Shown here piece after piece: positions 16,751-22,054 of a DNA stretch of 64,000 nucleotides. A program made the position numbers and the translations under genes. Source of the DNA: Mycobacteriales bacterium. Its GTDB lineage: Bacteria > Actinomycetota > Actinomycetes > BP-191. The stretch spans positions 62,001 through 126,000 of the forward strand of contig DASTMB010000040.1 of the NCBI GenBank assembly GCA_035714365.1. Reading direction: 5' to 3'. The notes under the pieces were generated by a model. It did not search any database and was not told the DNA's origin. It saw only the letters and a program-made list of their open reading frames with translations. Position 1 is the stretch's first letter, and each line of letters opens with the position of its first letter.

Positions 16751-17470
16751 TCAACGTCCGTCCGACAGCGCACGGATGAGCGCGTCGCCGTAGAACGCGA
16801 GGTCGGCGACGGTGAACTCCTTCCGCTGGACGTCGCTGAAGTGCCGCAGCGTCGCCGCCGGGTTGCGCAGCAGCCGTTCCCGCGCGCACTGCGCCGCGTC
16901 GGCGCGCAGCGGCCGCGGGGCGTGCGCCGCCTCCGCGTGAAACGCTTCAACGTCCGCGGCGAACAGGCGCAGCACGTCGTACACGTCCGTGGCGCGCTTG
17001 GCGGCACTGCGGTCGAAGGCGTGAACAGACGACTCGAGCTTGAGCAGCACGAGTCCGGCCGTCGTCGCCACGAGCGGTCGCGCCGTGGCGCGCCGTTCGT
17101 TCGCCGCGTCGCTCACCAGGACGTCGACCGCGGTGGCCCCGTCGAACGCCCAGGAACGCGCCGCCGGCAACCTGCCCTTGCCCTCCCCCGGTGCCGGCAC
17201 CGGGTCGATCGGGACATCGTGGAGCCGGACGAGGCCGCCGCTCTTCACACCGCCCGCCCGGACAAGCAGCTCGACGAGATCGTCCGGGTGCGTCGACATC
17301 GCGTCGACGTCGTGCGTCGCCCGGTGCGCGAGCGACAGCCGGACGCTGACCGCGAGACCGCCGATCAGCGCCCACCGCACCGACGCGGCGGGGACCGCCC
17401 CGAGCTCCTCGAACGCACGCGTGAAGATCGAGCCTGCGGGCGCACGCAGATGGACGACGTCACCAGACAC
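16751..17470 (-). CDS. AbiEii/AbiGii-like nucleotidyltransferase (probable toxin)
   Basis: A 239-residue MNT-fold nucleotidyltransferase of the AbiEii/MenT kind. The active-site strand reads WALIGGLAVSVRLSLAHRAT followed by DVDAM (about residues 33-57), giving the GG and DxD metal-binding elements. The downstream LLKLESS and RATDVYDVLRL match the conserved Lys and Asp positions of the family. AbiEii toxins transfer nucleotides to tRNA or other targets and are neutralised by an AbiEi antitoxin. GTG 17470 lies 11 bp inside the end of the STAND gene, so translation is coupled to it. No free-standing antitoxin gene is present; the upstream protein seems to carry it as its C terminus. Confidence 0.75.
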   Translation of the reverse strand: MSGDVVHLRAPAGSIFTRAFEELGAVPAASVRWALIGGLAVSVRLSLAHRATHDVDAMSTHPDDLVELLVRAGGVKSGGLVRLHDVPIDPVPAPGEGKGRLPAARSWAFDGATAVDVLVSDAANERRATARPLVATTAGLVLLKLESSVHAFDRSAAKRATDVYDVLRLFAADVEAFHAEAAHAPRPLRADAAQCARERLLRNPAATLRHFSDVQRKEFTVADLAFYGDALIRALSDGR

Positions 17471-20400
17471 GGAGGTACCCCGCTGGCGGGTCCCACGACG
17501 CCAGCGCCTCGCGTCCGCGCGAGTCGGTCGCGAGGTCGAGCGCGACGGCGAGGGGGTGCGCACGAAGCCTTCCGTCGTCGCCCGGCACGGCGTGGCGCAA
17601 CACCCCCCGAGCGGGTGGCATGGCGACGGTGCACGCGTGCCGGCCGGGCACGATCTCGCCGAGCACGCGGCGGGCGTGTCGCAGCACGTCTTCCGAGGGG
17701 ACGTAGAAGTCGGGTGGTGCGTCCGCGCGCGTGACCAGCGGCACGCCCCAGGCCACGGCCGCCGCCGTGTCGGTCAGGACCCACTGCTCCGAGGCGAGCA
17801 CCGGGTCGCCGGGCTGCGGCAGCGCGTCGACGTGGTGGCGTTCCGGACGCCAGTGTGCCGCCAGCTCGGGGAACAGTTCGGTCGCGGCTACCGCGCCGTC
17901 CGCGGTGACGAAGCCGTTCTCCCGGAATGCGGCCAGCACCGTCGACACCTGCGATGGGGAGCGTCCGGTCGCGCGCGCGAGGCCGCGCACCGTCGCCTTC
18001 TCCTCGGGGTGCACGAGCAGCTCGAACGCCACGTCCGTACCGACCGCGCTGAACAGCCGACGCCGCCGCTGACGGGTCGTGGCGGTCGCCAGGTCCGTCT
18101 CGATGTCCAGCCCTGGGGCGACCACGCGGAGGTGCCCGCGCCGGTCGAGCCACCCCCAGCCCCTGCGCCGCAGCTCGTGACGGAACCACTCCGGGACGGC
18201 GTCGGCCACGACGACGAGGCCGTGACCCGGGGGCGGTGTGACAAGCGCGCCGGCGTCGAGCCGAGCGGGCGCGACCACCTGGACCGTCACCGGCCCCTGC
18301 GGCGTCGGCACGACGACGGCGGCGGCGCGGACGTCGAGGTCGTCCGGTTCGGCGACGATCCGCGCCGCGAGCAGCGCGTTCGCCAGGTCGACCGCGACCC
18401 GGTGGCGTTCGCGCGTGGCGTTCTCGTCCAGCGCGGCGAGCCGCGCCGCCGTGCGTTCGGCGTCGCGCCCGTCCGGCGCGATCCGTCGGTGGATCGCCAG
18501 CGCCCGCTCCAGCAACGGCCGCGCCCCCGCCGCGTCGCCCAACGCCGCCAGCACCGTCGCCAGGTTGCCCAGCGTCGTCGCCACCGCCGGGTGCGCCGGC
18601 CCCAGCGCCGCCTCCTTGATTTCCAGCGCCCGCTCCAGCAACGGCCGCGCCCCCGCCGCGTCCCCCAACGCCTTCAACACCAGCGCCAGGTTGCCCAGTG
18701 CCGTCGCCACCTTCGGGTGCGCCGGCCCCAGCGCCGCCTCCTCGATCGCCAGTGCGCGCTCCAGCAACGGCCGCGCCCCCGCCGCGTCCCCCAACGCCTT
18801 CAACACCAGTGCCAGGTTGCCTAGGTCCGTCGCGACCTTCGGGTGCGCCGGCCCCAGCACCGCCTCATCGATCGTGAGCGCCCGCTCCAGCAACAGCCGC
18901 GCCCCCACGGCCTCCCCCAGCGCGTGGAGCACCGTCGCCAGGTTCCCCACGATCGTCGCTACCTTCGGGTGCGCCGGCCCAAGCGCCGCCTCCTCGATGG
19001 CCAGCGCCCGCTCCAGCAACGGCCGCGCCCCCGGCGCGTCCCCCACCGCCTTCAACACCAGTGCAAGGTTGCCCAGGGTCGTCGCCACCTCCGGGTGCGC
19101 CGGCCCCAGCGCCGCCTCATCGATCGTGAGCGCCCGCTCCAGCAACGGCCGCGCCCCCACCGCATCCCCCAACGCGTACAGCACCGTTGCCAGGTTGCTC
19201 AGGGTCGTCGCCACCCGTGGGTGGCCAGGCCCCAGCGCTGCCTCGTTGATCGCCAGCGCCCGCTCCAGCAACGGCCGCGCCCCCACCGCATCCCCCAACG
19301 CGCGCAGCACCATCGCCAGATTGCTCAGGTCCGTCGCGACCTTCGGGTGCGCCGGCCCCAGCGCCGCCTCGTCGATCGCTAACGCCCGCTCCAGCAACGG
19401 CCGCGCCCCCACCGCATCCCCTAGCGCGCGCAGCACCATCGCCAGATTGCTCAGGTCCGTCGCCACCTCCGGGTGCGCCGGCCCCCTCGCCGCCTCGTCG
19501 ATCGCCAGCGCCCGCTCCAGCAACGGCCGCGCGCCCGCCGTGTCCGCCAACGCGTACAGCACCATTGCCAGATTGCTCAGGTCGGTCGCCACCTCGGGGT
19601 GTGCTGGCCCCAGCGCCGCCTCCCGGATCGCCAGCGCCCGCTCCAGCAATGGGCGCGCCCCCGCCGCGTCGCCGAGCGCCTCCAGGACCATCGCGAGATT
19701 GCCGAGCGTCGCTGCTGTGCCCGGGTCCGCGGGTCCGGCCGTGCTCTCGGCGATCGTCAAGGCGCGTTCGGATGTTGCTCGCGCGCCCGCGAAGTCGGCA
19801 ACCTCCAACTGGTAGTTGCCAGCCCGGGCTAGGACGCTCACGGCGGCAGCGGACTCCGAGCCCGGGACCGCGGTCAGCACGTGCGGCAACAGCCGGGCGA
19901 ACGTCGGCCATGCCGCGACGTCGTCGTGCCGCTCGGGGAGCGCCTCATCAAGCGCCCGCACCACCCTCGCGCGTGCCGCCGCCATCCGTTCCGGCCCGAT
20001 CCGATCCCGACGCTCGTGCTGGACGAGGCGGTGCAGCGAAACCGCATCGCCGGCGACATCCACGAGCGAGTAGGCGCGCAGCGTCCGGATCGCCTTGTCC
20101 GTCCGTGCCGCGTCGCCGACGAGGCGCACGAGCAGGGGCCGGGGGATGTCCTCCGGCGCGAGCAGCGCGCACGCGTCGAGGAGCGCCGCCGCGTCGGCGT
20201 CCTCGTCCACTCGGACGAAAGACGCCTTAAACAACCCGGCCACGTCGATCCGGGTCAGGTACTCGTCGACCGGGCAGCCGGTGGCCCGGATGTACGCGGC
20301 CGCCACCTCCAGCGCCTTCGGCAGTCGCCCGACCGCCTCGGCCAGCCGGCGCGCGTCCGGCTCGCTCAGCGTCTCCGCCCGGCGCCGGATCAACTGGATC

Positions 20401-21989
20401 GCCTCGTCCTCCGGTGGTACCGCGAGCGGGAGCATGTCGGCGTCCGGCCAGTGTTGGTTCCGCGATGTGACGAGCACGTGCCCGGTTCGTCGGCGCGGCA
20501 GGTAGGGCTCGACCGCCTCCGGCGTCTCCGCGTTGTCGAACACGAGCAACCAGCGAGAGTGCCCCTCCAGCCACCGCCGCACCGCGGCGAGCGACTCGGA
20601 CTGGTCGAACGCACCGGATACGAGGCCGAGCGGGCCGGCCAGCGCCGCGATATCTGCGGCGAGCACGGTCGGGTCCTCCGCGCGCACCCACCACACGACG
20701 TCGTAGTCGCCGCTGCGCCGGTACGCGTGCTCCACGGCGAGGGTTGTCTTGCCGATACCACCGAGCCCGGCGATGGTCTGCACGACGGCAGTCGTCTCGC
20801 GCGACGCGAGCGCCTCTGCCAGCGCTCGCAGCTCCCCCGAACGGCCGGTGAAGCGCACGCTGCGTGGCACCGGCACGTGCCAGATCGGCGGCATCGCCGC
20901 CGGGAATCGCGGCCCGTCGGCGAACCGTTCGGCCGGCGCCGCCACACGGTCCGGCGGGCGGACCGTGGCAGCGCGGTCGAGGAGTTCGGCGCGCGCGGTC
21001 GCCTCGTCCGCACCGAGGCCGGTGGTGGCGACGTCGGCACCGCCCAGGCCGAGCGTCCCCTCCGCCCGCACGGCCTCCTCGCGCAGCGCGACGTCGTAGC
21101 CGCTCTCGCGCAGCACCCGCGCCGTCCATGTAGCCCACGACCGGTCGACGGGCGCGAACGCGACCACGAGCGGTTCCGGCCGGTCCGGTGCGACGTACTC
21201 TGGCGGTGGCCGCCAGCGCCGGCCTCCGTCGGCCCGCCCCGGCTCCAGCGTCGCGAGCAACTCGATCGCGAACGCCGCCGCGTGCCGCGCGGCGATCGGC
21301 TGCCAGAGCTCGTCCTTGGCGGCGACCTTGCCGTCGACGAGGTCGGAGATCCCGCGGACGACGATGGCCGGCGTCTCGTACTCGTACGCGGCCCGGAGGA
21401 ACCCAGACCCCTCCATCTCCACCGCGAGCGCGTCGCTGTAGTCGCGCCGGATCAGCGCGAACGTCGCCGAGTCGGTCGACGCCACGACCTTGTTGCCCGC
21501 CGCGATCGGGCCGACCATCGCCGCAGGGAGGCGAAGCGGTCGCGACGGCTTGATCCGCTCCAACCACCGCTGGTCGCGCGCGACGCCGAGCGCGCGCTGC
21601 ACCAACCGGTAGGCCGGCTTGTCGGCGGCGCCCCGCCGCGCGAACGTCTCCGCGTCCTTGCCGGCCTCGTAGTCGTAGACAGCGTCAGCGGCGACGACAT
21701 CGCCGAGGCCAACGTCCTTGACACCACCGGCCACCCCGACGAAGAGCAGGACGTCAGGGGAGAACACCTCGATCGCCCGGCCGACGTGTACCGCCGCGGA
21801 CACCGGCCCGGCGCGGGTCTCCACCACGGCGACCGTCCACTCCCCGGCCGCGCCGTCGAGGCGCCCCACCGTGTACTCCGTCGCCCGCTCTGTCACCATG
21901 CGGGGGTCGGTCAGGTGCTCGCAGACCGCCGCGCGCTCCAACGGGAGCGCGGTGAGCACGACCGCGAGTGGCGGGTTAGCGTCCGGCAC
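17460..21989 (-). CDS. STAND NTPase: PNP-like + NB-ARC + TPR array + AbiEi-like C terminus
   Basis: A 1509-residue multidomain protein. Residues about 5-255 are a PNP/MTAN-like nucleosidase or phosphorylase (LFVGVAGGVKDVGLGDVV, AVEMEGSGFLRAAYEYE, ISDLVDGK). Residues 265-370 are a linker with a TIR-like first strand (PLVVAFAPVDRSWATWTARV). The NB-ARC P-loop GLGGIGKTTLAVEHA is near 409, with WLLVFDNAE as Walker B and HVLVTSRNQHW as sensor. About eleven 42-residue kinesin-light-chain-type TPRs span 735-1165. Residues 1190-1509 contain a winged-helix-like segment (ATVRGLARATGRSPSQVSTV) and an AbiEi-like tail ending in FYVPSEDVLRHARRVLG and AHPLAVALDLATDSRG. GTG 21989 is chosen because the longer start lies inside the operator. 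Confidence 0.85.
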   Translation of the reverse strand: MPDANPPLAVVLTALPLERAAVCEHLTDPRMVTERATEYTVGRLDGAAGEWTVAVVETRAGPVSAAVHVGRAIEVFSPDVLLFVGVAGGVKDVGLGDVVAADAVYDYEAGKDAETFARRGAADKPAYRLVQRALGVARDQRWLERIKPSRPLRLPAAMVGPIAAGNKVVASTDSATFALIRRDYSDALAVEMEGSGFLRAAYEYETPAIVVRGISDLVDGKVAAKDELWQPIAARHAAAFAIELLATLEPGRADGGRRWRPPPEYVAPDRPEPLVVAFAPVDRSWATWTARVLRESGYDVALREEAVRAEGTLGLGGADVATTGLGADEATARAELLDRAATVRPPDRVAAPAERFADGPRFPAAMPPIWHVPVPRSVRFTGRSGELRALAEALASRETTAVVQTIAGLGGIGKTTLAVEHAYRRSGDYDVVWWVRAEDPTVLAADIAALAGPLGLVSGAFDQSESLAAVRRWLEGHSRWLLVFDNAETPEAVEPYLPRRRTGHVLVTSRNQHWPDADMLPLAVPPEDEAIQLIRRRAETLSEPDARRLAEAVGRLPKALEVAAAYIRATGCPVDEYLTRIDVAGLFKASFVRVDEDADAAALLDACALLAPEDIPRPLLVRLVGDAARTDKAIRTLRAYSLVDVAGDAVSLHRLVQHERRDRIGPERMAAARARVVRALDEALPERHDDVAAWPTFARLLPHVLTAVPGSESAAAVSVLARAGNYQLEVADFAGARATSERALTIAESTAGPADPGTAATLGNLAMVLEALGDAAGARPLLERALAIREAALGPAHPEVATDLSNLAMVLYALADTAGARPLLERALAIDEAARGPAHPEVATDLSNLAMVLRALGDAVGARPLLERALAIDEAALGPAHPKVATDLSNLAMVLRALGDAVGARPLLERALAINEAALGPGHPRVATTLSNLATVLYALGDAVGARPLLERALTIDEAALGPAHPEVATTLGNLALVLKAVGDAPGARPLLERALAIEEAALGPAHPKVATIVGNLATVLHALGEAVGARLLLERALTIDEAVLGPAHPKVATDLGNLALVLKALGDAAGARPLLERALAIEEAALGPAHPKVATALGNLALVLKALGDAAGARPLLERALEIKEAALGPAHPAVATTLGNLATVLAALGDAAGARPLLERALAIHRRIAPDGRDAERTAARLAALDENATRERHRVAVDLANALLAARIVAEPDDLDVRAAAVVVPTPQGPVTVQVVAPARLDAGALVTPPPGHGLVVVADAVPEWFRHELRRRGWGWLDRRGHLRVVAPGLDIETDLATATTRQRRRRLFSAVGTDVAFELLVHPEEKATVRGLARATGRSPSQVSTVLAAFRENGFVTADGAVAATELFPELAAHWRPERHHVDALPQPGDPVLASEQWVLTDTAAAVAWGVPLVTRADAPPDFYVPSEDVLRHARRVLGEIVPGRHACTVAMPPARGVLRHAVPGDDGRLRAHPLAVALDLATDSRGREALASWDPPAGYLRVW
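18494..19760. repeat. Tandem 126-bp repeats encoding near-identical TPRs
   Basis: About ten copies of a 126-bp unit follow one another inside the STAND gene, recognised by CGCTCCAGCAACGGCCGCGC recurring every 126 bp. Each unit encodes a 42-residue TPR (LLERALAI, then EAALGPAHP, then NLAMVLxALGDA). Units differ mostly at a few codons in the GPAHPxVAT and following helix positions. Such high identity points to recent unit duplication or gene conversion and makes copy number prone to change. Confidence 0.9.
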
Positions 21990-22004
21990 GGCGAGCCCCC
22001 GAGG

Positions 22005-22038
22005 TGTTCGGTGTTCGGAGTACACCGAACACCGAACA
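22005..22038. promoter_or_regulatory. Inverted-repeat operator upstream of the STAND gene
   Basis: Perfect 14-bp arms, TGTTCGGTGTTCGG at 22005-22018 and CCGAACACCGAACA at 22025-22038, flank a 6-bp spacer. Each arm is itself a direct repeat of the heptamer TGTTCGG, so there are four heptamers in all. The element ends 15 bp before the chosen GTG and fills most of the 65-bp gap after the upstream gene. AbiEi antitoxins repress by binding inverted repeats at their own promoter, so autoregulation through the C-terminal wHTH is a reasonable inference. Confidence 0.7.
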
Positions 22039-22054
22039 GGCTACCAGACTTACA

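Follow-up and report, generated by a model that had tools for sequence, protein, structure and literature searches.

A predicted toxin–antitoxin operon with an NLR-type receptor fused to its AbiEi_2-like regulator in a Mycobacteriales bacterium

Here, we describe a locus of a Mycobacteriales bacterium (GTDB lineage Bacteria; Actinomycetota; Actinomycetes; BP-191) in which an NLR-type receptor ends in an antitoxin-like regulator and is followed by a gene for a toxin-like nucleotidyltransferase (NTase). The locus lies in the window, by which we mean the whole stretch of 64,000 nucleotides that was analyzed (assembly GCA_035714365.1, contig DASTMB010000040.1, positions 62,001 to 126,000), and it comprises, in order along the minus strand from 22038 to 16751, a 34-bp palindrome and two open reading frames, ORF1 and ORF2. 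We tentatively favor a model, the chances of which we judge to be nearly balanced, whereby the receptor was inserted into a type-IV-like toxin–antitoxin (TA) operon of a kind widespread in actinobacteria, the tail of ORF1 represses the operon and holds the NTase, and activation of the receptor releases the tail and switches on an N-terminal purine nucleosidase/phosphorylase (PNP) domain. The part of this model that is read from the sequence comprises the domain order, the homology of the tail, the retention of the predicted operator and of an 11-nt junction, and the intact catalytic residues of nucleosidase, ATPase, and NTase. The features of the locus are as follows (window coordinates).

22005..22038, minus strand: predicted operator palindrome, TGTTCGGTGTTCGGTGTACTCCGAACACCGAACA, 34 bp, ending ~16 bp ahead of the ORF1 start codon
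21989..17460, minus strand: ORF1, 1509 aa, GTG start; PNP, remnant TIR, NB-ARC, TPR, and antitoxin-like tail
21255..21962, minus strand: MTAN-like PNP domain, PF01048 (PNP_UDP_1), E 8e-29
21030..21161, minus strand: TIR remnant, ~44 residues, middle of the domain absent; weak match to PF13676
20019..20834, minus strand: NB-ARC STAND ATPase, PF00931, E 2e-7; Walker A, Walker B, RNBS-B, GLPL-like, and MHD-like motifs
18435..19718, minus strand: TPR array, TPR_12, E 4e-132; nine counted 42-aa units, mean pairwise identity 78%
17463..18428, minus strand: antitoxin-like tail, 322 aa, homologous to standalone regulators over its length
18093..18428, minus strand: tail domain 1, restriction-endonuclease-like alpha/beta by secondary structure; E-x-K motif lost in the window tail
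17889..18083, minus strand: tail domain 2, winged helix-turn-helix; weak from the sequence of the window tail alone, clearer from the family
17463..17885, minus strand: tail domain 3, AbiEi_2-like C-terminal domain, by full-length profile match to PF09952 proteins
17460..17470, minus strand: stop/start overlap, GTGTCTGGTGA, 11 bp, with the ORF2 start within the ORF1 end
17470..16751, minus strand: ORF2, 239 aa, GTG start; AbiEii/MenT-like NTase

The longest version of the ORF1 frame begins at a GTG at 22025; because this position falls inside the palindrome, we take the GTG at 21989 as the start. The GC content at third codon positions is 0.89-0.94 in all segments of ORF1 and ORF2, which indicates that both are genuine coding sequence.

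The antitoxin-like tail and its nucleotidyltransferase partner

The tail of ORF1 is predicted to be a complete antitoxin-type regulator that groups with the AbiEi_2/COG4861 (PF09952) proteins, PF09952 (AbiEi_2) and COG4861 being the same family (PMC7251935). Homologs of the tail were sought first among relatives and the phylum and then by a scan of an 84,980-species genome collection, which yielded 76 loci, nearly all actinobacterial, with standalone homologs of ~340 aa that match the tail over its length. By hhalign, the tail family (alignment of 58 rows) matched AbiEi_2/COG4861 proteins with a probability of 98.8% (E 9e-17, 276 columns), and a distant family member, L017, matched PF09952 with 25.6 bits against a cut-off of 21. 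Tail domain 3 in isolation matched AbiEi_2 proteins weakly (18%), and the AbiEi_2 link therefore rests on the full-length match and the bridge protein L017. An AF2 model of the window tail built from the 58-sequence alignment (pLDDT 93.1) has an alpha/beta domain, then a winged helix, and then a C-terminal domain; the restriction-endonuclease-like nature of the first is supported by 2 of the 58 family members that match Mrr_cat and by 6 that match NucS.

An earlier note on this DNA, made from the letters alone, had proposed an AbiEi-like tail with a winged helix. The general proposal is upheld by the homology of the tail to standalone regulators whose partners are NTases of the AbiEii/MenT type, and the particular AbiEi families named there do not stand: a PF13338-type (COG5340) identity, with a winged helix followed by an antitoxin domain, is ruled out by an hhalign probability of 0.5% to PF13338-type proteins, and Pfam scans of the tail gave no match to PF09407. 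The winged helix was weakly detected in a Pfam scan of the window tail alone, which gave no direct match to PF09952, and it became clearer at the family level.

ORF2 was claimed in the same note to be an AbiEii-like neighbor with GG and DVD motifs and an 11-bp overlap with ORF1, and all of this holds. PF08843 (AbiEii/DUF1814) is matched by 33 of 41 members of the NTase family (best E 9e-9), and the nearest solved relative by family profile is MenT1 (8an4; E 8e-6). T52, D54, D56, D89, K144, K158, D162, and D165 are conserved in ORF2, as are G37 and G38 of the GG...D-V-D motif; both family membership and catalytic motifs point to a putative NTase toxin of the PF08843/DUF1814 type. The apparent loss of the third NTase Asp (H84 in a first alignment) was an alignment error, D89 being the conserved residue. 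The AF2 model of ORF2 has a pLDDT of 87.5, and the best Foldseek match of the NTase, at E 0.04, is an NTase-like protein.

An ORF2-homologous NTase lies directly downstream of the standalone regulator in 71 of the 76 loci, and the order of an antitoxin-like protein followed by an NTase is thus not a chance arrangement. Moreover, the distances within the tail and NTase families correlate (Mantel r 0.89 over 55 loci; 0 of 999 permutations as high). The window retains the bicistronic order of the COG4861-COG4849 pair, with the regulator directly before the NTase and the 11-bp overlap between them; Dy et al. 2014 (PMC3985639) list these two families as partners in a predicted AbiE-like system. A motif scan of the flanks of the standalone pairs found no NLR as a separate gene.

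Some of the standalone loci deviate in details. In L035, L046, L080, L091, and L098, the regulator has no adjacent NTase by family profile, and these may be orphans or cases of missed toxins. The N-terminal part of the NTase at L002:2487-3230 (genome G112) seems frameshifted, by decay of the pair or by sequencing error. Four actinobacterial-looking pairs (L033, L036, L043, and L077) are labeled Acidobacteria or Bifidobacterium breve (small contigs of metagenome-assembled genomes) or placed in Cyanobacteriota by tree, possibly as mis-binned contigs or mis-assigned labels.

Operator, junction, and the receptor between them

The palindrome shared with the standalone loci spans 32 bp; it is formed by two 14-bp half-sites, GTTCGGTGTTCGGT-N4-ACCGAACACCGAAC, and is found upstream of 61 of the 76 standalone genes with ≤6 mismatches in 28 positions. 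In controls, none of 1520 shuffled upstream regions contained it at ≤8 mismatches, and 793 kb of other sequence from the same loci contained three sites. The copy in the window, which the earlier note had missed, keeps 27 of the 28 positions and is the sole site in the 3.8-Mb genome at ≤3 mismatches. Operator variants (e.g., GTCCGGT in L099 and L101) accompany variants of the recognition helix in L098, L099, and L101. In the relatives, the center of the palindrome gives TTGACC, followed after 17 bp by a NANNNT hexamer near the start codon; the palindrome thus overlies this promoter-like pair and covers a likely promoter in the relatives. We regard it as a predicted inverted-repeat operator of the kind expected for AbiE-type systems. 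In the fusion, it precedes the receptor and lies ~3.6 kb away from the antitoxin part.

Two further observations concern the operator. In the window, a possible -10 box, TAGCCT (22038-22043), abuts it on the upstream side and could replace the promoter that lies within the palindrome of the relatives. Extra palindrome copies with 0-2 mismatches lie away from the antitoxin start at L032:7593, L044:10313, and L076:7768, those of L032 and L076 ~120-150 bp behind the NTase; the three copies may regulate another gene or mark old copies.

The overlap at the ORF1/ORF2 junction measures exactly 11 nt in 51 of the 68 homologous loci scored, and CGTGTCTGGT (17460-17471 in the window) is nearly invariant in DNA across these 68 loci. 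This conservation includes wobble positions and exceeds what the overlap of a start codon would need.

Between these two signals lies the receptor. Its PNP domain matches 5'-methylthioadenosine/S-adenosylhomocysteine nucleosidases in the PDB (E 3e-17, with alignment) and retains the catalytic residues in the LPLE, VEMEG, and RGISD motifs. The motif residues of the NB-ARC module are the P-loop GLGGIGKTT at 408, WLLVFDN (Walker B) at 480, VLVTSRN at 505, GRLPKALE at 554, and SLHRLVQ at 651; the module matches chain 6j5t_G, from a plant resistance protein, at E 6e-4, and ORF1 matches the NCBIfam family FxSxx_TPR (NF040586) with E 1e-143. With full NB-ARC motifs, a repeat sensor, and an N-terminal effector domain, ORF1 is thus predicted to be an NLR-like STAND receptor, and the Pfam and NCBIfam matches together with the motif positions confirm the PNP-like, NB-ARC, and TPR assignments that had been made for this 1509-residue frame. 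The array is encoded by a tandem repeat of a 126-bp unit (9.6 copies, 85% matches, 18492-19703); the similarity of the repeats suggests recent expansion or homogenization, and assembly may affect the copy number. The degenerate TIR between PNP and NB-ARC, also overlooked in the earlier note, aligns to the N-terminal TIR of related actinobacterial TIR-NB-ARC-TPR proteins, on which ground we suppose that the receptor derives from an NLR of the TIR type in which PNP has taken the place of the original effector.

Because the operator sits before the receptor and the junction is kept, the simplest history of the locus is that a TA operon took up the receptor, in frame, at a point behind its operator and ahead of its antitoxin. 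An assembly error behind the fusion is unlikely, since frame, codon composition, and flanking signals are all intact. Long ORFs in L031, L056, L066, L089, and L156 were considered as more fusions and rejected as GC-rich read-through with no recognizable protein before the true start.

Proposed mechanism and alternatives

In AbiE systems, AbiEi acts through inverted repeats to repress the operon that encodes it, while antitoxicity requires no more than the C-terminal domain of the protein (PMC3985639). By this analogy, the tail would be expected to repress the operon and to neutralize ORF2. In our model, the tail would occupy the operator at rest and keep expression low, and would keep the NTase inactive, either through direct contact or by causing T52 to be phosphorylated, in the way of MenA1 on MenT1. 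The latter is conceivable because T52-x-D54 of ORF2 aligns with T39-x-D41 of MenT1, in which T39 is an autophosphorylation site induced by the antitoxin (PMC11375011). By analogy with NLRs, the TPR array would sense a trigger and cause the NB-ARC module to change shape or oligomerize, and this switch would turn on the PNP domain and displace the tail from both operator and toxin. Displacement would induce the operon, and the NTase would then block translation. With less confidence, holding it to be somewhat improbable, we propose a two-tier receptor, in which a single NLR-type protein would act as sensor and nucleosidase effector, repress its own operon, and serve as the antitoxin to a separately encoded tRNA-modifying NTase, such that one switch would deplete nucleotides, induce the operon, and free a translation toxin.

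Several observations weigh against the model that we favor. The fusion is known from one genome, with no second case among the 76 loci or in ~790 further genomes covered by the tail-family search, and none in plasmids, phages, or viral contigs, where two Rhodococcus plasmid relatives were found; the gene order for which the earlier note had suggested a search recurs as regulator followed by NTase and not as a receptor fusion. The genes around the locus (ferritin-like, GAF-SpoIIE phosphatase, DUF6766, and histidine kinase) do not form a defense island. The window lacks the TTGACC and NANNNT hexamers of the relatives, and ORF2 by itself scores 20.2 bits to PF08843 (E 6e-4), under the cut-off of 22.5. 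A whole-chain Foldseek search of the tail against the PDB retrieved no solved AbiEi, returning weak winged-helix pieces, and against the PDB and viral structures it gave nothing at E≤0.001; the comparison with AbiEi that had been suggested as a check was thus negative by fold and positive by profile. The tail has a branch length of 1.46 against a median of 0.29, and it may therefore have changed function. AbiEi and AbiEii are reported as non-interacting (PMC3985639), so that it would be unsafe to assume that contact is what holds the NTase. Finally, the literature gave no experiment on any COG4861-type pair.

The same anatomy would also arise if the tail always neutralized the NTase and the toxin fired only upon loss, degradation, or block of ORF1, for example through a phage anti-defense protein or host shut-off. 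The toxin would then guard the receptor and make it addictive. A receptor–antitoxin fusion suffices for this and no allosteric coupling is needed; however, guarding alone leaves the fusion point and the role of receptor activation unexplained, and we consider it unlikely as the sole account, while noting that both roles can coexist. Improbable to a greater degree is that the tail only represses the receptor, perhaps also serving as an oligomer scaffold, with the NTase being an accessory effector or non-toxic and outside the control of the receptor. The kept operator, the long branch of the tail, and the degenerate restriction-endonuclease-like domain would fit such an autorepressor, whereas the intact catalytic residues of the NTase, the kept translational coupling, and the retention of tail domain 3, which is the antitoxic part by analogy with AbiEi, speak against it. 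The least probable account is that the fusion is recent and without function, or else a chimera made by the assembly: the restriction to a single genome, with two congeners searched and found without the fusion, and the highly identical 126-bp repeats, which make assembly harder, are in its favor, but a chimera would need to join the receptor in frame at the precise point that separates operator from antitoxin and leave both flanking signals intact, no broken motif was seen, third-position GC is 0.89-0.94 in all segments, and the contig that contains the site is 183 kb long, with the site in its interior. A comparison with the congeners for an empty site gave no matching flank (G002, 42% match; G001, none).

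If the mechanism is as we propose, the locus would offer a clean system in which a single molecule reports on the state of the sensor, the occupancy of the operator, and the release of the toxin. How infection triggers TA pairs is a long-running question, and here the antitoxin of a TA operon appears to have been provided with a dedicated sensor of the NLR type, while operator and translational junction stayed where they were. Moreover, the conserved operator, junction, and partner make the large actinobacterial AbiEi_2-type family directly testable as a TA system.

Comparison with known systems

The fusion, which was unfamiliar to the author of the earlier note, has no earlier description in the literature searched, many subscription journals and preprints being outside its coverage. 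Its parts resemble several known systems. Like the AbiE type IV TA system and the COG4861-COG4849 pair, the locus has a regulator followed by a DUF1814/PF08843 NTase, a winged helix, a predicted inverted-repeat operator, and an AbiEi_2 profile match; unlike in AbiE, the regulator carries an extra restriction-endonuclease-like domain, as in AbiEi_2 proteins, forms the tail of a 1509-aa receptor, and is not of the PF13338 type. ORF2 shares the T-x-D-x-D motif and the positions of the catalytic Lys and Asp with MenT1 (8an4) of the MenAT1 system of Mycobacterium tuberculosis, in which MenA1 is a small, unrelated antitoxin, whereas the window tail is a 322-aa three-domain regulator; MenAT1 is reported to lack autoregulation (PMC11375011).

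The receptor part, with its N-terminal nucleosidase, NB-ARC module, and highly similar TPR units, resembles NLR-like STAND receptors of bacteria and fungi that carry PNP_UDP or TIR effectors (FxSxx_TPR NB-ARC proteins; fungal PNP-NLRs, PMC9815663), to which ORF1 adds a C-terminal antitoxin-type regulator, a coupled toxin gene, and a TIR remnant behind the PNP domain. Detocs likewise has a PNP-superfamily effector in a defense setting, which cleaves ATP (PMC11249213), while the window locus is without a two-component kinase or receiver. Finally, CapRel (PMC9712102, PMC11578894) is, as we propose for this locus, a TA pair whose neutralization a phage trigger would relieve. In CapRel, toxin and antitoxin are parts of one chain, whereas here the toxin has an ORF of its own and the antitoxin would be the tail of an NLR-type receptor.

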